Below are positions 9,023 to 46,249 of a stretch of DNA of 64,000 nt, piece by piece. Below the pieces are notes generated by a model, which saw nothing but the letters and a program-made list of their open reading frames with translations, did no database searches and was not told the DNA's origin. The stretch lies in assembly GCF_016924655.1 (NCBI RefSeq), contig NZ_JAFFJU010000003.1:1-64000 (forward strand), read 5' to 3'. The translations under genes and the position numbers were made by a program. Numbering within the stretch: position 1 is the first letter of the stretch; every line of letters starts with the position of its first letter. This DNA is from Sphingomonas arenae (GTDB lineage Bacteria > Pseudomonadota > Alphaproteobacteria > Sphingomonadales > Sphingomonadaceae).

Positions 9023-10201
9023 CTAGGTATCCTCGCCGTCAATGAAGATGATCGTAGTTGTGGTTCCTTCCGGTGAACTGTGCTGCTCGAACTCACCGGC
9101 AACTTGACGGACCAAAGATTGCAGCAAGCGGGTTCCGGTGCCGCAACTCGCGTCCTTGGGGATGCCGGAGCCGTCATCTTTCACCTGGAGCATAGCTCGG
9201 CCTCCACCGGCACCGGCGGATAGCTCCACGATTACGCTGCCTGCCGAGCGATCCTGAAAGGCATACTTCAGGCTGTTCGTGACAAGCTCGTTGACAATGA
9301 GGCCAACGGGCACGGCCCGTTCAGCGGGAAGGGAGATGTCGTCCGCTCTGACGGTCACACTGACCTCCTCTCGTTGGCTAGCGAGACCGGTGCAGATTGC
9401 CCGCAAGTACGCTGGCATCGCGATCTTTTGATCGGAGCGTGTGGGAGAAAGCTGATCGTTGCCCAGTGAAACGGCCATGATCCGTTCGGCAACTTTGCTC
9501 ATAATGTCCCGTCCCTGCTGCGTCGGCAGCTTTGGCTGCTCCAGCGAGATCATCGACAGGATCATCTGAAAGTAGTTCTTCACGCGGTGCTGCATCTCCG
9601 CGAGGAAGAGGTCCCGCTCCTGCTTCTCAAGGGCGGCTGCAGCGAGAGCATCCCGGTGCGCCTCTTCAGCTTGGTGACGCTGGATAACGCTGGCGATGAG
9701 GCGCGAAACTGCAAGCAGGAAATCGACTGTGTCCTCTCGGAAGTCCCGCTGTTCGTTGTGGTCGACCTCCAATACGCCCCATGAAGCCTTGTCCGTCACA
9801 ATCGGCACGTTCACCAGCGAGACAATGCCGTGTTCCAGCAGGCTGCGAGAGGGTCTGAACTCTTCGCTCGCCCTAATGTCAACAACGACAACTGGCTCTG
9901 CCGTTTGGAACGCTCGACCAGGAGCCGATCTCAAGTTGATCGGAAAGGTCGTCTGACCAACGACACCTTTGCGCCAGCCGATCCCGGCGATCAGCAGTAA
10001 GTCGCCTTCCACGGGACGGTAACGAAGTATCTTCGTGTTGCTCACCTCAAGTGCGAGCGCCACTTGAGAGACTGCATGGCGGAGGAACTGCTCCAAAGGC
10101 ATCGTTTGTGATGCCAGCAAACCCAAATCGATAATGATGCGCTGGTGCTGACGGAGCTTATCAACTTCGGTGTAACCGGCTTTATTGATCCTTCGCGGCA
10201 C
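9023..10201 (-). CDS. GAF-domain sensor histidine kinase (HisKA_2/HWE-like)
   Basis: 392 aa from GTG 10201, which has GGAGAG six bases upstream; a TTG at 10318 is also open. A GAF sensor domain (about residues 30-190) is followed by a HisKA_2-type dimerisation helix, FLAEMQHRVKNYFQMILSMI with the phospho-histidine in QHRVKN, and a HATPase domain with the N-box GLIVNELVTNSLKYAF and G-box DDGSGIPKD. No transmembrane segment, so a cytosolic sensor. Codon use is less GC-rich than in the surrounding metabolic genes. The convergent receiver gene at 8616-8996 is the probable substrate. Confidence 0.88.
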   Translation of the reverse strand: MPRRINKAGYTEVDKLRQHQRIIIDLGLLASQTMPLEQFLRHAVSQVALALEVSNTKILRYRPVEGDLLLIAGIGWRKGVVGQTTFPINLRSAPGRAFQTAEPVVVVDIRASEEFRPSRSLLEHGIVSLVNVPIVTDKASWGVLEVDHNEQRDFREDTVDFLLAVSRLIASVIQRHQAEEAHRDALAAAALEKQERDLFLAEMQHRVKNYFQMILSMISLEQPKLPTQQGRDIMSKVAERIMAVSLGNDQLSPTRSDQKIAMPAYLRAICTGLASQREEVSVTVRADDISLPAERAVPVGLIVNELVTNSLKYAFQDRSAGSVIVELSAGAGGGRAMLQVKDDGSGIPKDASCGTGTRLLQSLVRQVAGEFEQHSSPEGTTTTIIFIDGEDT

Positions 10202-10372
10202 TCGTTCTCTCCATGGTCCTGCCAGCAAACGCTGTCGGCACAGATCGGATGCAGGCAACGTCCAAGATGGGTCGAGGGCAAGCGCAAGCCGCAGTGTTCG
10301 AAACGGGTGGAAACTCAAGTCTCCGGTAGGTTTACGCCCTCGGTCGTGTTAGAAGCGGACCATCGCGCTTGA

Positions 10373-18234: not shown

Positions 18235-18660
18235 CTAGCCGAACAGCGCGCGCACGATCTTGGCCGGGTTCATCGGCTTCTCGCAACGCTTCACGTGGCG
18301 GTAGCGGACGGGAACGAAGCCATGGCCGTAGCCGGTTGCGAAGACAAAAGGGACGTTCCGTTCGAGCAGCGCATCCGCGACGGGAATAGCGGTCTCGCCC
18401 CGAAGATTGAGATCCAGCACGGCCGCATCGAGGTGACCGGCCGTGGCGATGAGGTTGAGGGCGTTGCGAATGCTCGCGGCCGGTCCCACGATGGTCGCGC
18501 CGGCGGCCTGGAGGGATCGGGCGAGCTCGTCAGCCAGGAAGAACTCGTCTTCCACCAGCAGGATCCGCTGGTTGGCAAGCGCATCTCCAGCCATGACGGT
18601 CTCCAGACCCGGTCCCCGGACAATCGCTGACCGCGTCACTTCGGGTAGGTCGCCGTTCAT
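18235..18660 (-). CDS. Single-domain response regulator
   Basis: 141-aa receiver with a 30-residue N-terminal extension. Acidic cluster E37-D38-E39 in LLVEDEF, phospho-acceptor D83 in AVLDLNLRG, switch region FVFATGYGHG, lysine in CEKPMN. The start overlaps the stop of the upstream regulator by 4 nt. Last gene of a three-gene unit (HWE kinase - receiver - receiver). Confidence 0.88.
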   Translation of the reverse strand: MNGDLPEVTRSAIVRGPGLETVMAGDALANQRILLVEDEFFLADELARSLQAAGATIVGPAASIRNALNLIATAGHLDAAVLDLNLRGETAIPVADALLERNVPFVFATGYGHGFVPVRYRHVKRCEKPMNPAKIVRALFG

Positions 18661-19013
18661 TCCCCGGTGAGCTGCTTCAAGGCGGAGAGGAGGCGTCGTT
18701 CGGACGTCGGCTTGCCGGCATTAGGAACGCCGGCGAGAACATCGCCGCCGACCCGCTCCGGCCAATCGAATGCACTGGCGACCGCAAAGGGGATACCACG
18801 AGCCTTCAGGCATTCCGCAACAGGGGTGATGAGTTGGTCGCCCAGGTGGACGTCAAGGAGCGCGACATCGGGCGGCTCCTGCTCCACCAGTTCCAGCGCA
18901 TCCCGGATCGTTGCGGCCGGCCCGACCACCCGCCAGCCATGCGCCTCCAACCGGAGTTGCAGGTCCATGGCGATCAGGAATTCGTCCTCAACAATCAGGA
19001 TCGTTTGAGGCAC
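18657..19013 (-). CDS. Single-domain response regulator
   Basis: 118-aa receiver beginning MPQTILIVEDEFLIAMDLQL. E9/D10 form the acidic pair, D54 in VALLDVHLGD is the phospho-acceptor, and the lysine lies in NAGKPTSE. The usual switch Thr is replaced by Ser (FAVASAFDWP). It starts 9 nt after the HWE kinase stop and overlaps the second receiver gene by 4 nt. Two receivers behind one kinase suggest a branched relay or a phosphate sink. Confidence 0.88.
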   Translation of the reverse strand: MPQTILIVEDEFLIAMDLQLRLEAHGWRVVGPAATIRDALELVEQEPPDVALLDVHLGDQLITPVAECLKARGIPFAVASAFDWPERVGGDVLAGVPNAGKPTSERRLLSALKQLTGE

Positions 19014-19022
19014 TGGAACTCC

Positions 19023-20021
19023 TCACTCGGACTGGGATGCCGTCCCGAGGGGAACGACGATCTCAGCCTGAAAACCACCTTGCGGATAGTCCAGTTCCAC
19101 CGTTCCGCCGAGGTTGTAGCTGACCGTCGACTGGATCAGCTGCGTGCCGTAGCCGGTGGCCGTGGGCGCCGAGACGGCCGGACCGCCGCTCTCCGCCCAG
19201 TGCAGGTGCAGCTTGCCGTCTTCCACCTGCCAGCGCACCCGGACCTGCCCTTCGGGGTCCGACAGCGCACCATATTTTGCGGCGTTGGTGGTCAGTTCGT
19301 GGAGCACCAGGCTCAGCGACATGACGGTTCGGGGGCCTAGCTGGACCGGAGGGCCGGGCTCGATCACCGTGTTGGCGCCGCCGCTTGCGTAGGGTGCGAA
19401 GGTGCGTTCCAGCAGCTGTTCCACCCCCAGTTCACCCTGCTCCGCGAAGGCGAGGTCCTCGGAGTCGATCAGCGCACCGAGGCGGCCGAGCAGGCTGTCG
19501 CGATATTCCTCGGCGGTGCGACCCTCAATCGGAGTTTGGCGGGCAAGGGACTGCACCACTCCCAAAAGGTTCTTCATGCGGTGGCGAAGTTCGCCGAACA
19601 GCATGTCCTTGGCCCGGTCGCGGGCCATGCGGTCCGTGGCGTCGCTGAAGACAAGCAGGAGCGAATGGCTGGCCCCGTCCGGATGGAACAGGGTGCGCGC
19701 GGTCAGCAACATCGTCCGACGGCCAATGCTGGGAAAGTCATGCGTGACTTCGTAGTTGATGACGGCCGTTGACTTCGGGATCACGTCGCCCAGCAGACGC
19801 TGCAATTCCGGGATGTTCCACTGACCGTTGCCGAGGTCCGTCAGCCGTTGGCCGATCGTCTCGTCCCGGAAGACCTGGAATGTTTCGAAGAAGGATCGGC
19901 TGGCGTTCTGCACGCACAGGCTGGAGTCCAGCACCACCATTGGGTCGGCGATGGTATCGACAATGCCCTGCGTCTGCACATGGCCGGTGCGCAGGATCCG
20001 GTAGAGTTCTTCCATGTTCAT
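19023..20021 (-). CDS. PAS-domain HWE histidine kinase
   Basis: About 332 aa from ATG 20021 (a TTG at 20057 is also open). A PAS domain (about 12-125; GIVDTIADPMVVLDSSLCVQ) is followed by the HWE kinase module: FGELRHRMKNLLGVVQSLAR with the phospho-histidine, the N-box VLHELTTNAAKYGALSD, and LHLHWAESGG supplying the W-x-E motif that names the family. No transmembrane helix. Faces the Crp-family gene; an inverted repeat (20079-20093) lies between the two. Its partners are probably the two downstream receivers. Confidence 0.9.
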   Translation of the reverse strand: MNMEELYRILRTGHVQTQGIVDTIADPMVVLDSSLCVQNASRSFFETFQVFRDETIGQRLTDLGNGQWNIPELQRLLGDVIPKSTAVINYEVTHDFPSIGRRTMLLTARTLFHPDGASHSLLLVFSDATDRMARDRAKDMLFGELRHRMKNLLGVVQSLARQTPIEGRTAEEYRDSLLGRLGALIDSEDLAFAEQGELGVEQLLERTFAPYASGGANTVIEPGPPVQLGPRTVMSLSLVLHELTTNAAKYGALSDPEGQVRVRWQVEDGKLHLHWAESGGPAVSAPTATGYGTQLIQSTVSYNLGGTVELDYPQGGFQAEIVVPLGTASQSE

Positions 20022-20078
20022 CCGAAGATCACTGCCTTCGGCCGACGGTAAAGGCAATCGGCGGACGTGCGCTTTGCA

Positions 20079-20093
20079 ATCCTATGTTAGGAT
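20079..20093. promoter_or_regulatory. Inverted repeat between HWE kinase and Crp-family genes
   Basis: ATCCTA-TGT-TAGGAT, perfect 6-bp arms in the divergent promoter region. Its 9-base centre CCTATGTTA recurs in the opposite orientation at 21703-21711 before cphA. Possible operator or overlapping -10 region. Confidence 0.4.
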
Positions 20094-20164
20094 AAAGCAC
20101 CGCCGCGCGTTCTATGTCGGCTCAAGGAGCACGCTGAGTTCCTTGTACCGAGGCCCCGCCTTCC

Positions 20165-20929
20165 GTGAATGCATTCGTGAACAAGCTCTGCCGCGGGGCA
20201 CCGCTGACCGAGGCCGACAAGACCGTTCTGCTCGACCTGACCCGGTCCGTCCGGCGGGCTGAGAAGGGCCGCGACATTGCGGTGCCGGGGGACAGTTCCC
20301 GGAGCCTGCCGGTGATCCTGCGCGGCTGGGCCTGCCGGTACCAGGTGCTGGCGAACGGCAAGCGGCAGATCGTCATGCTCTACCTGCCCGGTGACATGTG
20401 CGAGCCATTCGGCCTGCTGCCGCACTTCATCGACGACAACATCGCGGCGCTGACGCCGGTTTCCTTTTCCACCCTGAGCCAGGATGTGCTGCGCACTTGG
20501 GTTGAGCGAAGCCCGACCTGCAAGCAGGCGCTGTGGTGGGACCTGCTGGTCGCCACGAACATCGAGCGAGCGCAGATCGTCAGCCTGGGACGACGGTCCG
20601 CGGCGGAGCGGCTGGGGCACCTGTTCTGCGAGATCGAACTGCGCCTGCGAATGGCGGGCATTCCGACGGAAAGCGGCTGCGACATGCCGCTGACGCAGGT
20701 CGAGTTGGCCGACCTGCTCGGACTGACGCCAGTGCACGTCAACCGTTCGCTGCAGGACCTGCGCAAGGCCGGATTGATCTCGCTGGAGAACCGGCGCCTG
20801 ATCATTCGCGAGCACCAGGAGTTGCGAGACTTGTCCGACTTCGATCCGTGCTACCTTCATGTGAACTATGCGCAGACCAGTCCGGAAGGATGGCCGCACA
20901 GTCTGAGCGAGACGATCGATGACGCCTGA
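20165..20929 (+). CDS. Crp/Fnr family transcriptional regulator
   Basis: 254 aa. The N-terminal cyclic-nucleotide-binding-like beta roll (about 20-130; VILRGWACRYQVLANGKRQI, VMLYLPGDMCEPFG) is followed by a dimer helix and a Crp-type winged helix (about 150-215) with recognition helix in PLTQVELADLLGLTPVHVNR. It lacks the N-terminal cysteine cluster of Fnr and an obvious cAMP pocket motif; it is of the type often annotated Crp/Fnr in sphingomonads. Start GTG 20165. It overlaps the next kinase gene by 11 nt. Confidence 0.9.
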   Translation: MNAFVNKLCRGAPLTEADKTVLLDLTRSVRRAEKGRDIAVPGDSSRSLPVILRGWACRYQVLANGKRQIVMLYLPGDMCEPFGLLPHFIDDNIAALTPVSFSTLSQDVLRTWVERSPTCKQALWWDLLVATNIERAQIVSLGRRSAAERLGHLFCEIELRLRMAGIPTESGCDMPLTQVELADLLGLTPVHVNRSLQDLRKAGLISLENRRLIIREHQELRDLSDFDPCYLHVNYAQTSPEGWPHSLSETIDDA

Positions 20930-21599
20930 GGACCGTGCCACGGCGCGGATCGCGGAACTGGAAGCGGACAACCGCCGGCTGCGCCGATTGCTCGACCAGC
21001 GGGATGCTCCCGGCGAGCTTCGGCACCGGCTGCGCAGTACCGTGTCCTTGCTTCGCGCCATCATCCGCCAGTCTGCGAGGACCCCGCGAAACCCCGACGA
21101 CTTTGCCGATCATGTGGAGGGTCGCCTCGACGCGATCGCGCGTGCCCAGGCGGAGGCCGACGAGCGTGGGGCGATTGACCTTCACAAGCTGATCGCGGAC
21201 GAATTGCTGCAATATGGATCCCATGAAGGGGACGGACTGACCCTGTCGGGGCCTGCCATCTGCCTTCAGCCGCGAGCGGGGCAGCTGTTCGCGCTGGCCG
21301 TCCACGAACTGGCGGTGAACAGCATCGAACATGGTGCGCTTGCAGCAGGCGGACAGATCGAGGCGGAGTGGGGAATTGCGGAGGGCAGCGAGGGCCCGGT
21401 CCTGACCTTCCGCTGGCGCGAGGAGCTGGAGAAGGGACTCCGGCAAGGGGAGCATGGAGGCTTTGGCACGTATGTGCTGACGCGAATGCTGCAATACGAG
21501 CTGGGCGCGACGACCCATCTGGAGAAAGGACCGGACGGCGTGTCCTTCGCGATGAGCCTGCCGTTCACCGAGCGGGTCGGGTCGCTCTCCGAGGGGTGA
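20919..21599 (+). CDS. Minimal HWE histidine kinase without sensor domain
   Basis: 226 aa. A short coiled coil (IAELEADNRRLRRLLDQR) leads straight into the kinase module: ELRHRLRSTVSLLRAIIRQS with the phospho-histidine, LAVHELAVNSIEHGALAAGG as N-box, and LTFRWREE supplying the W-x-E motif. No PAS, GAF or membrane segment, so input must come through a partner. ATG 20919 lies inside the preceding crp-like gene (11-nt overlap), which makes the Crp-like protein a candidate partner (inference). Confidence 0.85.
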   Translation: MTPEDRATARIAELEADNRRLRRLLDQRDAPGELRHRLRSTVSLLRAIIRQSARTPRNPDDFADHVEGRLDAIARAQAEADERGAIDLHKLIADELLQYGSHEGDGLTLSGPAICLQPRAGQLFALAVHELAVNSIEHGALAAGGQIEAEWGIAEGSEGPVLTFRWREELEKGLRQGEHGGFGTYVLTRMLQYELGATTHLEKGPDGVSFAMSLPFTERVGSLSEG

Positions 21600-21702
21600 T
21601 CCTTCAGCCGAGAAATGAGTCGGCAAGCTACTCCGTTTCCCCGGAGTGGAACGTCCTCTTCATTGCTCCGTTGCACGTTCTAATCCAATGATTTCAGAGC
21701 GT

Positions 21703-21711
21703 TAACATAGG
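21703..21711 (+). promoter_or_regulatory. Motif TAACATAGG before cphA, shared with the HWE/crp intergenic region
   Basis: This 9-mer, followed by TT, is the reverse complement of CCTATGTTA at 20081-20089. It lies 36 nt before the cphA start and could be a promoter element or regulator half site. Confidence 0.3.
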
Positions 21712-21746
21712 TTATCGCGGGCGAAACCTCATTGCCTGGGACGAAA

Positions 21747-24539
21747 ATGAAGCAAGACAACGGAAGGCCGGTGTTCTTCGGGAAAAGTGAGGACCCGGGG
21801 ACGCGGATGCTGACGCGGCCGGTCACGGTGCTCGAGAAGGGCGTCTACCGGGGAGCGCACTATTTCAGCCTGACACCGATGATCCGGGTAATGCTCGATC
21901 TCGGGCGGATGGAGGATTGGCCTTCCAACCGGATCGCCGGGTTCACGGACCGGCTGATCGAGTTGCTGCCCGGCCTCCATCGCCACGGTTGCAGCCTGCG
22001 CCGCCGCGGCGGGTTCGTCGAGCGGCTGCGCGACGGCACCTGGCTCGGCCATGTGGTCGAGCATGTCGCGCTGGAACTGCAGTCCATGGTCGGACCGCGG
22101 GTCACGCGCGGGAAGACGCGGTCGGTGCCGGGGCGGCCGGGCGTGTACAACGTCATGTTCGCCTACGCCCACGAGGAGGCGGGACTGCTCGCGGGCAGGC
22201 TGGCCTTGGAGATCGTCAACTCTCTGCTGCCGGCGGAGCTTGCCGGCATGGAACGGCTCGAGCGGATTGCCGAGGCAGACGGCGCGTTCGAGTTCGAGCG
22301 GCGCCTGCAGCAGCTGCGCGCAGCGACGTCGAGGGCGTCCTTCGGGCCGACCACGCAGTCGCTCGTCGACGAGGCGAAACGACGAGGGATCCCGGTGATG
22401 CGCCTGGACGAGGCGAGCCTGGTTCAGCTCGGCCATGGGCGGTACCAGAAGCGCATCCGGGCCAGCATCAGCGGTGACACACCCCTGGTCGCGGCGGACC
22501 TTGCCGGCAACAAGCACCTGACGAAGAAGCTGCTGGACGAAAGCGGCATTCCGGTGCCGCGCGGTGTTGTCGTGCGCAACGTTGACGAGGCGCTGAGGGA
22601 AGCGCGGCGCCTCGGCTTTCCCCTGGTGACGAAGCCGCTGGACGGCAATCACGGGCGCGGGATCACCATCGGTATCCAGAGCGAGGAGCAGCTTCGCTTC
22701 GGCTTCGAGCACGCCCGGGGGCATAGCCGGAGCGTCATCGTGGAGCCGTTCTTCGCCGGGCGCGACCATCGCATCCTGGTGATCGGCGGCAAGCTGGTGG
22801 CCGTGGCGGAACGCGTGCCGGCCCATGTGATCGGGGACGGCACCAAGTCGATCGCGCGGCTTATCGAGCAGGTGAACGAGGACCCGCGTCGCGGCGACGG
22901 GCACGAGAAGGTGATGACGCGCATCAAGGTTGATGCGCACGTCACCGAGTATCTCGCCCGGTCCGGCCTGACTGTGGACAGCGTCCCTGCCGCCGGGGAC
23001 ATCATCATGCTGCGTGCCACGGCCAACCTGTCGACGGGTGGCACGGCGGTGGACCGGACCAACGAGATCCACTTCGACAATGCGGAGATCGCCCGCCGCG
23101 CCGCATTGATCATCGGCCTGGATATCGCGGGTATCGACTTCGTCTGCCCGGACATCACCCGGTCGGTGCGGGAGACCGGCGGCGGCGTCATCGAGGTGAA
23201 TGCCGCTCCCGGTTTCCGGATGCACCTGGAGCCCTCCGAAGGACCACCGCGGGACGTCGCGCGGCCGGTACTGGAGATGCTCTATCCTCGTGGGCGGCAG
23301 AGCCGGGTCCCGATCATTTCGATCACCGGGACCAACGGCAAGTCGACGACCGCGCGGATGCTCAAGCATGTGCTGCGCTACACCGGGTGCAGCATCGGAC
23401 TGACGTCGACCACCGGAGTGTACGTCGACGACGTGCTGGTCATGCAGGGCGACGCCACCGGTCCTCGCAGCGCGCGCATGGTCCTGCGGGATCCTACAGT
23501 CGACGTCGCCGTGCTGGAGACGGCACGGGGCGGCATCCTGCGCGAGGGTCTGGGCTACGACCGGGCGGACATCGGCGCGGTGCTGAACATCTCGGCCGAT
23601 CACCTCGGGCTCAAGGGGATCGAGACGCTGGAGGACCTAGCCTGGGTCAAGTCGCTGGTGGTGGAGACCGTGAGCCGTCGGGGGACCTCCGTGCTCAACG
23701 CGGACGACCCGCAATGCGTGCGGATGGCTCGGCGGGCTGGCGGGCGCCTGGCGTGGTTCTCGCTTCATGGTGGCGACGACATGCCGCCCGTACTGCGGCG
23801 GCACGTCGAGCATGGCGGGATGGCCGTGGTGCGCGAGCCCGGCCCGGAAGGCGGGACGATCGTGCTGCACCAGGCCGGCCAGCGGCAGATCGTCATGAAG
23901 GCCGGGGACATCCCCGCGACGCTGCACGGAATGGCGACGTTCAACATCGCCAACGCGCTCGCCTGCATTGCGATGGCGGTGGCGCACGACGTCCCGCTGC
24001 TGACCATCCGCTCCGCGCTGTCGATGTTCCAGTCGAACTTCGAACAGAACCCGGGGCGGCTGAACGTCCACGACGCGCACGGCTTTCGGGTGATCATGGA
24101 CTATGCGCACAATGCTGCCGGACTGCGAGCGCTCGGCGACGTCATCAACGGCTTGCGCCATCGCTACAGGCGAACCATCGGCGCTGTCACCATTCCGGGC
24201 GATCGGCGAGACGAGGACATCATCGAGGTCGGGCAGATCGCGGCGGGCATGTTCGACGAGCTGGTGTTCCGCGAGGATCCAGCCACCCGCGGACGGCCGC
24301 GGGGCGAGGTCATGGGACTGCTGCAGGAAGGCGCGGTCAGGGCCGGGGCCACGCCCGACCACATGCACCTGATCGCCGGGGAGGCGGAGGCGGCGGCCGC
24401 TGCGCTGACCCTGGCACAGCCAGGCGAGCTGGTGGTCATCACTCCCACCGACGTATTCGGCTGTTGGGAGCAGGTGCGCAGTTTCCGCAAGGTGGAGACC
24501 GCCAGTGCGCCGAACGGCCACGTGATCGCTGCGGAGTGA
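21747..24539 (+). CDS. cphA: Cyanophycin synthetase
   Basis: 930 aa, normal size for CphA. Domain order: N-terminal domain (about 1-160; GAHYFSLTPMIRVMLDLGRM), ATP-grasp domain that adds aspartate (about 210-475; DLAGNKHLTKKLLDESGIPV and FPLVTKPLDGNHGRGITIGI), Mur-ligase-like domain that adds arginine to the Asp side chain (about 480-930; P-loop ITGTNGKSTTARMLKH near residue 525, and DYAHNAAGLRAL). It makes the Asp-Arg nitrogen-storage polymer in the cytosol. A TTG at 21732 is open, but ATG 21747 is preferred. The isoaspartyl dipeptidase gene follows after 1 nt. No truncation seen. Confidence 0.95.
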   Translation: MKQDNGRPVFFGKSEDPGTRMLTRPVTVLEKGVYRGAHYFSLTPMIRVMLDLGRMEDWPSNRIAGFTDRLIELLPGLHRHGCSLRRRGGFVERLRDGTWLGHVVEHVALELQSMVGPRVTRGKTRSVPGRPGVYNVMFAYAHEEAGLLAGRLALEIVNSLLPAELAGMERLERIAEADGAFEFERRLQQLRAATSRASFGPTTQSLVDEAKRRGIPVMRLDEASLVQLGHGRYQKRIRASISGDTPLVAADLAGNKHLTKKLLDESGIPVPRGVVVRNVDEALREARRLGFPLVTKPLDGNHGRGITIGIQSEEQLRFGFEHARGHSRSVIVEPFFAGRDHRILVIGGKLVAVAERVPAHVIGDGTKSIARLIEQVNEDPRRGDGHEKVMTRIKVDAHVTEYLARSGLTVDSVPAAGDIIMLRATANLSTGGTAVDRTNEIHFDNAEIARRAALIIGLDIAGIDFVCPDITRSVRETGGGVIEVNAAPGFRMHLEPSEGPPRDVARPVLEMLYPRGRQSRVPIISITGTNGKSTTARMLKHVLRYTGCSIGLTSTTGVYVDDVLVMQGDATGPRSARMVLRDPTVDVAVLETARGGILREGLGYDRADIGAVLNISADHLGLKGIETLEDLAWVKSLVVETVSRRGTSVLNADDPQCVRMARRAGGRLAWFSLHGGDDMPPVLRRHVEHGGMAVVREPGPEGGTIVLHQAGQRQIVMKAGDIPATLHGMATFNIANALACIAMAVAHDVPLLTIRSALSMFQSNFEQNPGRLNVHDAHGFRVIMDYAHNAAGLRALGDVINGLRHRYRRTIGAVTIPGDRRDEDIIEVGQIAAGMFDELVFREDPATRGRPRGEVMGLLQEGAVRAGATPDHMHLIAGEAEAAAAALTLAQPGELVVITPTDVFGCWEQVRSFRKVETASAPNGHVIAAE

Positions 24540-24540
24540 A

Positions 24541-25446
24541 ATGACCATGGCTGACGCGGAAGGCCGCTGGGCGCTGATCGTCCACGGCGGCGCGAAAAAG
24601 ATCGAACCGGGCGAGGAGCAGGCGAACCGGGAGGGTGTGATCCAGGCGGCGGAGGCCGGCCGGTCCGTACTGGCCAATGGCGGTTCAGCGGTCGAGGCGG
24701 TGGAGGCCGCGATCAAGGTGCTGGAGGACCTGCCGGTGTTCAACGCCGGGCGCGGGTCCGTGCTGAATGCCGTCGGATGGGTCGAGATGTGTTCCGGAAT
24801 CATGGATGGAGGCGATCGAAGTGTCGGCGCCGTCGCGGCGCTCCGGGACGTGCGGCACCCGATCGAGGTGGCACGGCTGCTGCTGCCCGAGCGCGAGGTT
24901 CTGCTGGCCGGTGAGGGCGCGCGGATGTTTGCGCAAGAACGCGGCGTTGAGCTCGCTTCCGACGAGCAGCTCAAGGCGGAAGAGCCTTACGGGTCCGAGC
25001 AGGAGCATGACACCGTCGGCGCAGTGGCGATCGACCAGCTGGGGCGGATTGCCGCGGGGACGTCGACCGGCGGGCTCGACGGAACGAAGGCGGGTCGGGT
25101 GGGCGACAGTCCGCTTCCTGGCTGCGGTTATTACGCCGACGATCGCATTGGCGGAGTCGCGCTGTCTGGCGACGGTGAGACCATCACGCGCCTGACGATC
25201 GCCTCGGCGATCATGGGCCGCCTGGAGGCTGGCGAGCAGCCGGATGCTGCCATCGCGGCCGCCGTTGCCGAGCTGCCGGAGGTCGGCGGCGCCGATGCCG
25301 ACGCGGGTGCAATCGCGATCACGCACGATGGCCGGATCGGCTGGCACCACAACAGTCCCGATTTTGCGGTGGCCCTGATCGACAGCAGCATGAACGGGCC
25401 GCGCGCATGGCTGCGAAAGACGAAAGACAAGGACCAGCATGACTGA
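24541..25446 (+). CDS. iaaA: Plant-type isoaspartyl peptidase/asparaginase
   Basis: 301 aa, Ntn-hydrolase that self-cleaves before the catalytic threonine, here T158 in EQEHDTVGAVA. Other family marks: ALIVHGGAKK at the N-terminus, FNAGRGSVLN, and the substrate loop GTSTGGLDGTKAGRVGDSPLPG. In this operon its expected substrate is beta-Asp-Arg, the dipeptide released by cyanophycinase, giving free Asp and Arg. It starts 1 nt after cphA and overlaps cphB by 8 nt. Confidence 0.93.
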   Translation: MTMADAEGRWALIVHGGAKKIEPGEEQANREGVIQAAEAGRSVLANGGSAVEAVEAAIKVLEDLPVFNAGRGSVLNAVGWVEMCSGIMDGGDRSVGAVAALRDVRHPIEVARLLLPEREVLLAGEGARMFAQERGVELASDEQLKAEEPYGSEQEHDTVGAVAIDQLGRIAAGTSTGGLDGTKAGRVGDSPLPGCGYYADDRIGGVALSGDGETITRLTIASAIMGRLEAGEQPDAAIAAAVAELPEVGGADADAGAIAITHDGRIGWHHNSPDFAVALIDSSMNGPRAWLRKTKDKDQHD

Positions 25447-26260
25447 GGAACGGCGTCGCGGCACCCTGATCATCATCGGCGGCCATGAGGAGCGCAGCCC
25501 GTCGTCCGACCGCGCGATCCTGCGTGAGGTTGCCGGACGGGTGAAGGGCGGCAAGCTGGTCCTGGCCACGGTCGCAAGCCACCGGCCCGAAGGCTATTTC
25601 GACGAATATGAACGCGCGTTCCGCGACCTCGAAGTCGGTGAGTTGGTCGAGCTTTACGTCGAGAACCGTTCCGAGGCGGGCGACATCGAGAAGCTGAAGG
25701 TGCTGGACGACGCGTCGGGCGTGTTCTTCTCGGGTGGCGACCAGCTGCGGATCACCAGCCAGATCGGAGACAGCGGCATCGAAGCCAAGGTGCGAGCCCT
25801 GTTCGAGCGGGGCGGGGTGATCGCCGGGACCTCGGCGGGCGCGTCGGTCATGAGCGAGACCATGCTGGTGAAGGGCACCAGCAAGGAAACGCACCGGATC
25901 GGCGACCTCCACATGTCGCCCGGCCTGGGGCTCATCCGTGACGTCATCATCGACCAGCACTTCGCCGAGCGTGGACGCTTCGGTCGGCTGATCGGTGCCG
26001 TTGCCCACAATCCGCGCGTGCTGGGCCTCGGCATCGACGAGAACACGGCGGCGATCGTGGAAGGCGACCGGCTGAGCGTCATCGGCGCGGGAGCAGTGTA
26101 TGTGGTGGACGGCTCCACCGTGTCATACTCCAACCTTGCAGAAGCACGGTCGGAGGACACGCTGTCCATGCACGACGTGACCGTGCACGTGCTGGCGGGC
26201 GGCGACGGTTTCGACCTGCGAATCCGCCGGCCTTTCCCATGCCAGGCTACGAAAGAATAA
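25439..26260 (+). CDS. cphB: Cyanophycinase
   Basis: 273 aa, peptidase family S51. The nucleophile is S132 in AGTSAGAS (same position as described for the Synechocystis enzyme); FFSGGDQLR and GLGLIRDVIIDQHFAERGRF hold further active-site residues. An exopeptidase that releases beta-Asp-Arg from cyanophycin. ATG 25439 overlaps the iaaA gene by 8 nt, completing synthesis, polymer cleavage and dipeptide cleavage in one unit. No signal peptide, so the cytosolic (not secreted) form. Confidence 0.95.
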   Translation: MTEERRRGTLIIIGGHEERSPSSDRAILREVAGRVKGGKLVLATVASHRPEGYFDEYERAFRDLEVGELVELYVENRSEAGDIEKLKVLDDASGVFFSGGDQLRITSQIGDSGIEAKVRALFERGGVIAGTSAGASVMSETMLVKGTSKETHRIGDLHMSPGLGLIRDVIIDQHFAERGRFGRLIGAVAHNPRVLGLGIDENTAAIVEGDRLSVIGAGAVYVVDGSTVSYSNLAEARSEDTLSMHDVTVHVLAGGDGFDLRIRRPFPCQATKE

Positions 26261-26405
26261 CGACTTTCCGCTTCTTGGGGGCGCGGGACTCGAGCGCCCG
26301 ATAACCTAGTTGATGGGGCGACCAGCGGCTGAATGGTAAAACTCGAATCAGCAAGGCGGCACTCGCCAGATTGGCGGTGCCGGCCCGAGTTGACGGAGAG
26401 TTTGC

Positions 26406-26579
26406 GTGACGGATCTCAACTATCTCTTTCAACGACAGCAGCAGGAGCGGAGCTCGATCGCTGCCGCGACCCATCCCAACGCACGCGCCGCACACGAGCG
26501 GCTGGCCGCCCTTTATGAAGGCGAGATCCGGCGGATCACGAGCGGCAGGATCAACATCAAGTCGTCGACGCTCGATTGA
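26406..26579 (+). CDS. Small helical protein, 57 aa
   Basis: GTG 26406 follows GGAGAG by 5 nt. The product MTDLNYLFQRQQQERSSIAA continues with HPNARAAHERLAALYEGEIR: helical, amphipathic, with regularly spaced H-x-x-LA and Y residues. The pattern (YLF-RQQ-ER then AH-LA-Y) is shared with the 48-aa protein at 54145-54291 and the C-terminal half of the protein at 26611-26829, and I recall similar short proteins in sphingomonads. Function unknown. Confidence 0.7.
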   Translation: MTDLNYLFQRQQQERSSIAAATHPNARAAHERLAALYEGEIRRITSGRINIKSSTLD

Positions 26580-26610
26580 GCAGCGACGGACCGACGCAGG
26601 AAGACCGGCC

Positions 26611-26829
26611 TTGGAAAGTCGACCAACGCCCAGCGCGACACAGCAGCACCACGCCCGGCATGATCCCTTTGAACCGGATGGGGATTACTTCAGTCGGCGC
26701 TCACGGGAAGAGAATGCCGCCGCCGAGCATGCCAGCTGCCCACAAAGCCGAACGGCGCATCTGGAGCTGGCGAGCCGCTATGCCCTCCTGGCGGCAGCGA
26801 TCAGGGAAGCGAGCGGGAAGCTCGGTTAG
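26611..26829 (+). CDS. Small helical protein related to the preceding one, start uncertain
   Basis: The C-terminal 50 residues, DYFSRRSREENAAAEHASCP followed by RTAHLELASRYALLAAAI, share the DYF-RR-EE-AAE and H-ELA-RY pattern with the 57-aa protein just upstream. TTG 26611 has AGGAAG seven bases before it and is the best visible start; the open frame to 26515 overlaps the upstream gene. Probably a tandem paralogue. Function unknown. Confidence 0.5.
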   Translation: MESRPTPSATQQHHARHDPFEPDGDYFSRRSREENAAAEHASCPQSRTAHLELASRYALLAAAIREASGKLG

Positions 26830-26894
26830 GCGCGGCAGTGGTCAGCCATTTTCGCGGCTGAACATGGCGGAAAGACTGGTTTTTCAGAAGGGAG

Positions 26895-26968
26895 TGGAGG
26901 CCCGAGCCGGAATCGAACCGGCGTGCAAGGATTTGCAGTCCTCTGCGTAACCACTCCGCCATCGGGCC
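26895..26968 (-). tRNA. tRNA-Cys (GCA)
   Basis: Reverse complement begins GGCCCGATGGCGGAGTGG and ends CCGGCTCGGGCCTCCA. Acceptor GGCCCGA/TCGGGCC, anticodon arm GAGGA-CTGCAAA-TCCTT with anticodon GCA, T-loop TTCGATT, encoded CCA. 74 nt. Confidence 0.97.
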
Positions 26969-27028
26969 GAGGCGGCGGATTTGTGCGGGTTGGGGGATGG
27001 TGTCAACCGCGCCGCGCACTTTTTCGGA

Positions 27029-28336
27029 TCAGAACGGGAAGAAGGCCTGGATGGCGAACACCGCCACGACCCAGGTCACGAGGTTCAGGGGAATGCCGAC
27101 CCGAACGAAGTCCATGTAGTTGTACCGGCCCATGCGGTAGACAATCACGTTGGTCTGGTAGCCGAACGGAGTGGCGAAGGCTGCGCTTCCGGCAATCATC
27201 ACGGCGACGAGGAATGGGCGGGGACTGACGCTGAGCGCCTCGGCGAACGAGACGGCGATGGGCGTGAAGAGCACCGCCACCGTGGCATTGGACAGGATCT
27301 CGGTCGCGAAGAGTGTTGCGCCGTAGATGACGATCAGGGCGATGAGCGGGTTCACACCGTCCAGAGAGCCGATGAGCAGGTCGGTCGCCGCCTTGGCGAG
27401 GCCGGTCTCCTCGAGGGCAATGCCGAGGACGACCATGCCCGCGATGAGCATCAGCACGTCGGGGCGGAGGCCCTGATACGCCTCGTCCGCGGTGATGACC
27501 CGCAGGACGATGAGCAGCACGGCGCCGGCGAATGCGGTGGCGGCGATGGGGGCCACGCCCCAGGCGGCCGCGGCCACGACGGAGACGAACACCAGCAGCG
27601 AGGCGACCGCCTTGACGGGGCGCAGCGGCTTTTCCTTCGCGAAGGCAAGCGCGGTCCCGATCTGGCCGCCGGCAAGCCCCGGCTCCTGGTCATCGGACTT
27701 GTCGGCCGGCGCGCCCAGGCTGGCTTCGCCCCGGACGAGATAGCGGCTGAAGAGCAGGAGGTAGAGCCCGCCGGCCAGCGCGACGAGGACGCCGACCGGG
27801 GTGATCTCGAACAACGTGAAGCGGGGTTGGCCGGCGACGGACGCCATGTCGTTGACGAGCAGGTTGGTCGAAGTGCCGATCAGCGTGCAGCATCCGCCCA
27901 GGACCGCCGCGTAGGACAGGGGAATGAGGAAGCGCTTGGCCGACATGCCGAGCGAGTCCGCGACGTCGCGCACGACGGGGGCGGCGAGGACCACGATGGG
28001 CGTGTTGTTGAGAAAGGCGGAGGCGGCGCCGCACAGACCGATCATGACCCAGAGGCCGGCCCGGCCGATCCGCTGACAGAGCCGCTTCAACCGCTCGATG
28101 GCCGCGTCCAGCAGCCCGGACAGCTCCATTGCGTAGGCGATCACGAACAGGGAGGCGAGCGCAATGATGGCCGGGCTGGCAAAGGCGCTCTGCACCTCGA
28201 TCGGCCGAACGACGCCGGTGATCAGCAGCAGCGCGGCTCCGGTGAGGGCAACCACGTCCGATCTTGCCCGATCCCATATCAGGGCGGCGACCACCCCTCC
28301 GAGCACAAGGAGAGTGAGGATCTGGCTGGCCGTCAT
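27029..28336 (-). CDS. SLC13/DASS family permease
   Basis: 435 aa, about 10-12 transmembrane helices in two repeats. Diagnostic segments: SAFLNNTPIVVLAAP (the NNTP-type cation/substrate loop), GCCTLIGTSTNLLVND, and near the C-terminus LSNATVAVLFTPIAVSFAEA. A soluble loop around residues 205-235 is charged. The family moves dicarboxylates, sulfate or similar anions with Na+ or H+. No TrkA-C regulatory domains are present, unlike many longer relatives. Substrate not deducible; the gene stands alone on its strand. Confidence 0.85.
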   Translation of the reverse strand: MTASQILTLLVLGGVVAALIWDRARSDVVALTGAALLLITGVVRPIEVQSAFASPAIIALASLFVIAYAMELSGLLDAAIERLKRLCQRIGRAGLWVMIGLCGAASAFLNNTPIVVLAAPVVRDVADSLGMSAKRFLIPLSYAAVLGGCCTLIGTSTNLLVNDMASVAGQPRFTLFEITPVGVLVALAGGLYLLLFSRYLVRGEASLGAPADKSDDQEPGLAGGQIGTALAFAKEKPLRPVKAVASLLVFVSVVAAAAWGVAPIAATAFAGAVLLIVLRVITADEAYQGLRPDVLMLIAGMVVLGIALEETGLAKAATDLLIGSLDGVNPLIALIVIYGATLFATEILSNATVAVLFTPIAVSFAEALSVSPRPFLVAVMIAGSAAFATPFGYQTNVIVYRMGRYNYMDFVRVGIPLNLVTWVVAVFAIQAFFPF

Positions 28337-44026: not shown

Positions 44027-46249
44027 ATGGCGACCATGGCGATCGAGGAGAGCCGTCCGGCGGGCAGGCTCCGCCTGCGATACACGCTGGCGATCTTTGC
44101 CGGGTCCTTTCTGCTGTTCCTGGTTCAACCGCTGCTCGCCCGCATGGCCCTGCCGCGGCTTGGCGGAGCGCCGGCAGTCTGGAACTCCGCGATGCTGGTG
44201 TACCAGGCGCTGCTGCTGGGCGGATACGCCTACGCTCACGCGATCGCACGACTGCCGGGACGTGCGCAGGCCGGCATTCACCTGACACTGCTGGCGCTGG
44301 CCGCACTGACCTTGCCGCTCGGGCTCAGCGCCGCCGTGCCGGACGCGGGGGACAACAGCTTCCTGTGGGTGCCGTGGCTCCTGCTGCTGTCGGTCGGACC
44401 TTTGTTCTTCGTGATCTCGGCGCAGGCGCCATTGCTGCAGCGCTGGTTCGCCATGAGCGGGGGAGGCGATCCCTACCCGCTGTACGCAGCATCGAACCTG
44501 GGGAGCCTGCTTGGTCTGCTCACCTATCCCTTGCTGCTGGAGCCGCTGATCGGCGTCGGTCACCAGAGCTGGTGGTGGAGCATCGGCTATGCGGTCATGG
44601 CACTGCTCGTCGCCTGGTGCATGTTGTCGCTCCAGGGCTCGGCAACGACGACCGCGATCGTGAGCCAGGAGGCGGTCGAACGCCCGCTGGACAAGAAGCG
44701 CATCGCGGGCTGGATCGTGCTGGCCGCGGTGCCGTCGGGCCTCATGCTCTCGACCACGCTCCACCTGACCACGGACATAGCGGCCATGCCGCTGCTGTGG
44801 GTGGTTCCTCTCGCCATCTACCTGCTCAGCTTCACCGTGGCCTTCTCGGAGCGGCGGGGCCTGGCGCAGCTGTGCGCGCGGGTAGCGCCCTTCACCGTGC
44901 TACTGGTCTGCGTGGGCCTGTTCCGGGCGCAAGGCGCGTTGCTGCTGCCGGTGATGATCGTCTCGCTGCTCAACCTGTTCATGGTGGCCGTGGCGCTGCA
45001 CGCCAAGCTGTTCGACGATCGTCCCGCGCCATCGCAGCTCACCGGCTTCTATCTTGCCATGTCCGTGGGTGGAGCCTTGGGTGGCCTGTTCTGCGCCCTG
45101 ATCGCGCCGCTGGTATTCGACTGGACATACGAGCATCCCCTGCTGCTGCTCGCGGCGGGCGCACTCGTCGCCGGGGTGCACCCGTTCCGGCGGTTCGAGC
45201 AGCTGTGGCGCTCCCCCACGCTCGAGCGACGAGTCCTGATGGTCATCATCCTGCTTGTGCTGCTCACCCTGATCGCTCGGTCGGTGCTGGGGGATGATGC
45301 GGAGTGGGTCCGCCTCGCGGTTCTGGGCGTGCTGATGGCGATCGGACTGTTCGCGATCGGGCGCCCGCTGCTGTTCACCATCATCCTGGCGCTGTTGATG
45401 CTGGGCATGGGCGGGGTCCAGAAGCTCGCCCTCACGTCCGAGCCCGGCCGGATGACCCGCAGTTACTTCGGCGTTTATTCGATCCAGGAGGACGACAGCC
45501 TGCGCTACCTGCTGCACGGCACGACCATGCACGGACTGCAGCTGCGCGGATCGCCGGAGCGGGAACGGCTGCCCACCAGCTATTACGCCCCGCAGTCCGC
45601 CGTCGGGCGGCTCCTCAACATCGCACCAGCTCTGTATGGGCCGCAGGCTCGCATCGGAGCCGTCGGGCTCGGCACCGGGACACTGTCCTGCTACGCACGG
45701 GCGAACGAGCGCTGGACCTTCTACGAGATCGACCCCGCGGTGGTCGACATCGCGCGCGATCCGAAGCGTTTCACCTTCCTGTCCAAATGCCTTCCCAAGG
45801 TGCCGATCGTGCTGGGTGACGCGCGGCTGAGCCTGGCTGGGCAGGCGCCGGGTAGCGCGGACGTGCTGATCATCGACGCCTTCTCGTCCGATGCCGTGCC
45901 CATGCACCTCCTGACCCGTGAAGCGTTTGCCCTCTATCGCCGGGTTCTCCAGCCGGAAGGCATATTAATGGTGCACATCTCGAACCGTCACCTCGACCTG
46001 CAGCCGGTGGTCGCGGCCTCGGCCCGTGGGCAGTTCCAAGCGATGCTCGGCGTCTACGATCCGTTGCCGCGGGAGGTCGTGCTGGGGGCGGCACCCAGCC
46101 GCTGGATCGCCTTGTCGGCTTCGGGCCGGAAACTTGGCGAGCTCCGTTCCGCGACCAGGGCCGACTTCTGGGAGCCGCTGCCCCCATATGCCGACTTCGC
46201 GGGCTGGACCGACGACTACGGTTCGATCCTGCCCATCATCAAGCGATGA
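44027..46249 (+). CDS. Fused membrane / spermidine synthase-like protein
   Basis: 740 aa. Residues about 15-470 hold roughly 12-14 hydrophobic helices of the fused MFS/spermidine-synthase type (FAGSFLLFLVQPLLARMALP at the start; GSLLGLLTYPLLLEP). Residues about 480-700 are a spermidine synthase-like Rossmann fold: ARIGAVGLGTGTLSCYARAN (SAM loop), TFYEIDPAVVDIA, VLGDARLSLAG and LIIDAFSSDAVPMHL. The GGGDG/E-x-D polyamine pocket is not complete, so aminopropyl transfer is doubtful. GGGGGG precedes ATG 44027. Overlaps the GNAT gene by 4 nt. Confidence 0.88.
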   Translation: MATMAIEESRPAGRLRLRYTLAIFAGSFLLFLVQPLLARMALPRLGGAPAVWNSAMLVYQALLLGGYAYAHAIARLPGRAQAGIHLTLLALAALTLPLGLSAAVPDAGDNSFLWVPWLLLLSVGPLFFVISAQAPLLQRWFAMSGGGDPYPLYAASNLGSLLGLLTYPLLLEPLIGVGHQSWWWSIGYAVMALLVAWCMLSLQGSATTTAIVSQEAVERPLDKKRIAGWIVLAAVPSGLMLSTTLHLTTDIAAMPLLWVVPLAIYLLSFTVAFSERRGLAQLCARVAPFTVLLVCVGLFRAQGALLLPVMIVSLLNLFMVAVALHAKLFDDRPAPSQLTGFYLAMSVGGALGGLFCALIAPLVFDWTYEHPLLLLAAGALVAGVHPFRRFEQLWRSPTLERRVLMVIILLVLLTLIARSVLGDDAEWVRLAVLGVLMAIGLFAIGRPLLFTIILALLMLGMGGVQKLALTSEPGRMTRSYFGVYSIQEDDSLRYLLHGTTMHGLQLRGSPERERLPTSYYAPQSAVGRLLNIAPALYGPQARIGAVGLGTGTLSCYARANERWTFYEIDPAVVDIARDPKRFTFLSKCLPKVPIVLGDARLSLAGQAPGSADVLIIDAFSSDAVPMHLLTREAFALYRRVLQPEGILMVHISNRHLDLQPVVAASARGQFQAMLGVYDPLPREVVLGAAPSRWIALSASGRKLGELRSATRADFWEPLPPYADFAGWTDDYGSILPIIKR

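Follow-up and report, generated by a model that had tools for sequence, protein, structure and literature searches.

The cphA-iaaA-cphB operon described here belongs to a patchily distributed, often plasmid-borne lineage (type A) of cyanophycin operons, and probably forms a single transcription unit driven by an EcfG promoter, with a role in stress or starvation. The upstream sequences compared below make it likely, too, that type A operons of Alphaproteobacteria are often EcfG-driven, which would tie the polymer to the general stress response. Throughout, ‘the window’ is the whole stretch of DNA analysed, 64 kb in length (positions 1-64000 of the third contig of a 2.76 Mb genome in five contigs). 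The operon and the features immediately 5′ of it are:

20165-20929, + strand: Crp/Fnr-family regulator (HTH_Crp_2 and cNMP_binding above Pfam cut-offs)
20919-21599, + strand: HWE-family histidine kinase (HWE_HK 51 bits, cut-off 22.8)
21648-21672, + strand: putative EcfG promoter GGAAC-N16-CGTT, an exact consensus match that recurs before related operons
21732 (TTG) or 21747 (ATG) to 24539, + strand: cphA, cyanophycin synthetase (TIGR02068 and Pfam domains)
24541-25446, + strand: iaaA, isoaspartyl peptidase/asparaginase of the Ntn family (Pfam Asparaginase_2)
25439-26260, + strand: cphB, cyanophycinase (TIGR02069, Peptidase_S51)

The three genes are intact open reading frames, all on the + strand and almost touching: one base separates cphA from iaaA, and iaaA overlaps cphB by eight bases. 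This bears out the first-pass annotation, which had described a complete cyanophycin operon of overlapping or nearly touching genes, with the cphA start at the ATG at 21747; the TTG at 21732 is the alternative. With 1131.2 bits on TIGR02068 (cut-off 850), CphA is placed firmly in the CphA1 (cyanophycin synthetase 1) family; it also exceeds the Pfam cut-offs for Cyanophycin_syn, RimK-type ATP-grasp, Mur_ligase_M and Mur_ligase_C, and aligns full length with the solved cyanophycin synthetase 7lg5. CphB, at 267.8 bits on TIGR02069 (cut-off 126.6) and above the Pfam cut-off for Peptidase_S51, falls as firmly in the cyanophycinase family. Its GTSAGAS aligns to the solved cyanophycinases 7uqv and 3en0, and GTSAGA is kept in all 26 type A CphB proteins; we take this GTSAG-type serine motif to be the nucleophile. 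IaaA (251.6 bits on Asparaginase_2, cut-off 27) has a TVGAVA motif that aligns to its counterpart in 4o47, indicating an Asparaginase_2 Ntn fold with its threonine motif. The TVGAVA-type pattern was matched in 18 of 24 type A IaaA proteins, the remaining six retaining the threonine within DT[VI]G; this threonine is presumably the Ntn nucleophile. These assignments support a complete set of genes, in which CphA would make cyanophycin, CphB cut it and IaaA split the product.

That gene set is already known. The main text of Sharon & Schmeing 2023 (PMC10206079) reports cphA1, cyanophycinase and iaaA clustered in 49 of the 153 genomes with all three, including that of the alphaproteobacterium Roseivivax halodurans, with the same three activities side by side as in the window. 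The R. halodurans IaaA is given there as 51% identical to that of E. coli, whereas the window IaaA falls under the cut-off of the E. coli-type equivalog (NCBIfam NF007589; 131.4 versus 567 bits). The words promoter and stress are absent from that paper's main text.

Among 52 cph loci (window included) we distinguish two architectures. Type A has cphA first, a CphA at least 52% identical to that of the window and usually the order cphA-iaaA-cphB; type B has the order cphB-cphA and a CphA at most 50% identical. In 16 of 17 proteobacterial type B loci a second CphA-like gene follows cphA. Of the 23 type A loci that are not from Deinococcus, the window among them, 18 have the cphA-iaaA-cphB order, as do five of six Deinococcus plasmid loci and all four type A loci added later; of the other five among the 23, two are interrupted by a contig end and three have no iaaA there. 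A CphA tree of 46 rows (without L013, L015-L018 and L020) splits the lineages, with support of 100/100 for 16 type B rows and 99/99 for 27 type A rows, and three type B-like rows falling outside both groups. Type B clusters of the form cphB-cphA-(second Mur ligase) share homologues of CphA and CphB with the window, but differ from it in CphA identity, gene order and clade, and in the EcfG motif treated below (none of the 17 proteobacterial loci).

Presence is patchy. Counting the window's genome, cph loci occur in three of the 71 genomes sampled from the genus, in 19 of 397 from the family and in nine of 385 from the class, one of the last below the family's cut-off; a second, overlapping draw from the family gave 20 of 397, the window's not counted. 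In the tree, the window CphA pairs with that of locus L042 from the same genus (support 100/100); the third genome of the genus (G257) carries type B, and a genus search centred on genome G157 gave no further locus. Plasmids that carry type A operons come from Rhizobium, Mesorhizobium, Pelagibacterium, Sphingobium and Deinococcus. Horizontal spread is likely. Excluded from the counts were L011 (the L164 record), L021 and L022 (distant partial matches), G813 (a fragment), G266, G447 and G471 (weak CphA-like matches) and short loci at already-covered places (L002-L008, L030-L036, L146-L155). The plasmid sample comprises the 16 of 19 records with at least 80% CphA coverage, H11, H17 and H19 being left out, and the near-duplicates L010/L164 and L161/L163 were retained.

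The operon is located 3′ of a tRNA-Cys gene. On that side 28 sister flanks (∼1.5 kb) share little, the largest ORF group being found in four of them, while the other side has a TolC gene in 21 of 29 sister loci. The divergence of the 3′ flanks against the common TolC side fits a variable region; integration of an element at tRNA-Cys is not claimed on this evidence. Two genomes of the genus have a DASS/CitMHS-type transporter gene and a cph cluster separated by a tRNA gene (window 26895-28336; L044:13019-15465), although the two loci differ in tRNA (Cys, Arg) and in cph lineage (A, B). The tRNA-adjacent position is a possible insertion hot spot. Foreign composition was considered and rejected, operon GC (0.65-0.69) being within the window's range.

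EcfG is the alphaproteobacterial general stress sigma factor, with the consensus GGAAC-N16-CGTT reported for Sphingopyxis granuli (PMC7083833) and Rhizobium etli (PMC3892343). The exact match in the window ends 59 bases before the TTG start of cphA and 74 before the ATG, within the 132 bases 5′ of the gene, and begins 48 bases after the HWE kinase gene; by consensus, the operon has a predicted EcfG-regulon promoter. Sameness of consensus, nearness to the start codon and HWE kinases nearby are likenesses to the EcfG/PhyR/NepR regulon as described in PMC6599016, PMC7083833 and PMC3892343. The word cyanophycin is absent from the main text of the first two, and no word starting with cph occurs in the main text of the third. 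The motif was picked after viewing the upstream sequence and the adjacent kinases, so that the single window site is weak evidence and comparison between loci is the stronger test.

For that comparison, GGAAC-N15..18-[CG]GTT was sought from -300 to +60 of the first gene, with positions counted from a start extrapolated from the window CphA, an error of tens of bases being possible. A first look gave six of 14 type A loci. In the enlarged set of 23 type A loci, Deinococcus excluded, 10 have the motif, with none antisense and none for the reversed pattern; shuffles gave a mean of 0.22 and a maximum of 3 (300 shuffles), and about 0.4 would be expected from the loci's own motif density. All ten spacers are 16 or 17. 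GGAAC by itself is the most widespread of all pentamers in the interval -130 to +10, present in 19 of the 23 (mean 2.77 and maximum 9 in 1000 shuffles). For S. granuli, GGAAC is reported to be the conserved element, the -10 box being more flexible (PMC7083833), which fits the near-miss sites in this comparison. The full motif was found in none of six Deinococcus, 17 proteobacterial type B and six other type B loci; GGAAC alone was found in none of the Deinococcus loci and one of the 17.

A prediction set beforehand was applied to four new type A loci from a further family search, three of which have the full motif; all three belong to genus g54, the source of the earlier L025, and therefore are not independent confirmations. 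Combined, 13 of 27 type A loci have the full motif (12 distinct sites) and 22 have GGAAC. Neither is present in L042 (the closest relative), L013, L027, L174 or L221. Upstream of cphA in L027 and L174 is an open frame that continues into the gene, so the promoter may lie further up; these two are not counted as support.

A different element, the FNR-like box TGAT-N4-ATCA, stands 90-102 bases before the extrapolated cphA start in L218, L219 and L221, and in L218 and L219 directly before the EcfG-like site. FNR-type control of cphA as a general rule was rejected, since the window lacks the box and only three of 27 type A loci have it, against a shuffle mean of 0.13. The Crp/Fnr-family regulator of the window has its best match elsewhere in the genus at 43% identity; relatives of it (31-42%) are near the operon in seven of 26 other type A loci outside Deinococcus (L012, L026, L027, L158, L173, L174, L221) and in none of 17 proteobacterial type B loci.

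Genes for PhyR, NepR, an EcfG-like sigma factor and a HisKA_2/HWE kinase are present in the genome, within 4 kb of each other. The first three mark it as alphaproteobacterial, and the kinship of its CphA points to a sphingomonad. Among 19 reading frames scanned downstream of strict sites in the genome, several are of families associated with stress: ecfG, which is preceded by a 58-aa frame, Hsp20, PCMT, MipA, DUF1206, and proteins of the pyridoxamine-oxidase-like and host-attachment types. Other frames have no stress link (e.g. an mfd-like one), and five of the 19 have no family. We take MipA to be the outer membrane protein V of the Sphingomonas melonis EcfG table. That table (PMC6599016) lists general stress protein 26, outer membrane protein V and a host-attachment protein. 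One strict site (L124, contig C1:718979-719003) is 23 bases before a protein-isoaspartate methyltransferase gene, so isoaspartate repair may share the regulon. Catalase, Ku, Hsp20 or ferritin-like genes are near the operon in three of seven alphaproteobacterial plasmid regions and in none of the other four.

Three HWE/PhyK-like sensor kinases are encoded in the 13 kb before cphA, at 9023-10318(-), 19023-20057(-) and 20919-21599(+), two called by Pfam HWE_HK and one by an NCBIfam PhyK match below cut-off. The kinase at 20919-21599, adjacent to the motif, is a possible stress-signalling input to the operon. A second EcfG-like site, GGAAC-N17-GGTT at 19098-19073(-), is inside the end of a kinase gene and ∼60 bases before the gene for a single-domain response regulator, 18657-19013(-). 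The stress signalling genes and the cph operon may share control.

The first-pass annotation had suggested that the region may work as an arginine/polyamine nitrogen reservoir. On that model the polymer would be supplied or depleted by polyamine catabolism and arginine succinylation, under control shared with the operon. Arginine is indeed both a building block of cyanophycin and the substrate of the AST pathway, and the genes are real and within the same 64 kb: an AptA-like aminotransferase, an FAD oxidase, PotD/PotB/PotC-like proteins, a TOBE-domain ABC ATPase, astA/astB for arginine succinylation, and two GlnA-like proteins with additional, sub-threshold matches to gamma-glutamylputrescine synthetase. 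Their distance from the operon is 4-21.5 kb on the upstream side and 29-32 kb on the downstream side, and the linkage is not kept: the 51 other cph loci gave two matches, both weak (L024 potC, 31%; L049 aptA, 33%), in flanks of mostly 10 kb or less, where linkage as loose as the window's own could escape. L042 and L043, which together cover the locus of the nearest relative with the operon from ∼15 kb before cphA to ∼19 kb after it, contain no polyamine or ast match. The window has only three sites for GGAAC-N15..18-[CG]GTT, at 18311(+), 19098(-) and 21648(+), and none immediately precedes a gene of the polyamine or ast group. These comparisons give no support to a coupling with polyamine and arginine genes, and we consider the reservoir very improbable. 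Separately, a fused MFS/spermidine-synthase-like protein is encoded at 44027-46249(+) (58.6 bits, NCBIfam cut-off 40).

A stronger competitor, although still an unlikely one, holds that this cyanophycin operon is ordinary and subject to housekeeping or nitrogen control, with GGAAC bound by another factor or kept by ancestry alone. This would account for the closest relative having no motif, for the strict motif not being enriched genome-wide (27 sites versus 55 for the reversed pattern) and for GGAAC alone being commoner than the full motif. Against this reading, the spacers vary (12 distinct sites in 13 loci) while both boxes and the 16-17 spacing stay. EcfG is described in PMC3892343 as exclusive to Alphaproteobacteria, and the Deinococcus copies, where EcfG is not expected, are without GGAAC. 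Nor did a crude scan of 20000-27100 find a sigma-70-like site.

Control of the operon by EcfG would work through the PhyR-NepR-EcfG switch which, like the cyanophycin pathway, is taken from the literature. Stress or starvation would lead to phosphorylation of PhyR, drawing NepR off EcfG, and freed EcfG would switch on synthesis and both breakdown steps together. CphA would make multi-arginyl-poly-aspartate, CphB would cut it to beta-Asp-Arg and IaaA would split this to Asp and Arg, giving a stress or starvation reserve with turnover. Read directly from the DNA are intact genes of these families in a recurring order, a motif that other type A operons share, and the presence of ecfG, phyR and nepR; from these we infer a single transcript, use of the motif as promoter, stress induction, polymer formation and the reserve role. 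The first-pass annotation held that producing synthetase and hydrolase together needs post-translational control, but a shared transcript would be equally compatible with continuous turnover.

Exact searches of the open-access literature for cyanophycin with EcfG, or with general stress response and Alphaproteobacteria, gave no paper, and no title or abstract start listed by broader searches there joins cyanophycin to EcfG; published regulon tables may still contain such an entry.

Cyanophycin has mostly been studied as a nitrogen store of cyanobacteria. More tentatively than for the promoter, and with rather less than even confidence, we suggest that the alphaproteobacterial cphA-iaaA-cphB operon may be a general-stress module, not a nitrogen-surplus store: a fast-turning pool of Asp and Arg for starvation, desiccation or oxidative stress. 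It may have travelled on plasmids among Alphaproteobacteria, and perhaps into or out of Deinococcus, with EcfG promoters acquired in the alphaproteobacterial hosts. The stress link is directly testable with ecfG and phyR mutants; if true, it would give the polymer a different job in heterotrophs, and would supply a reason for synthetase and hydrolases to share one operon.
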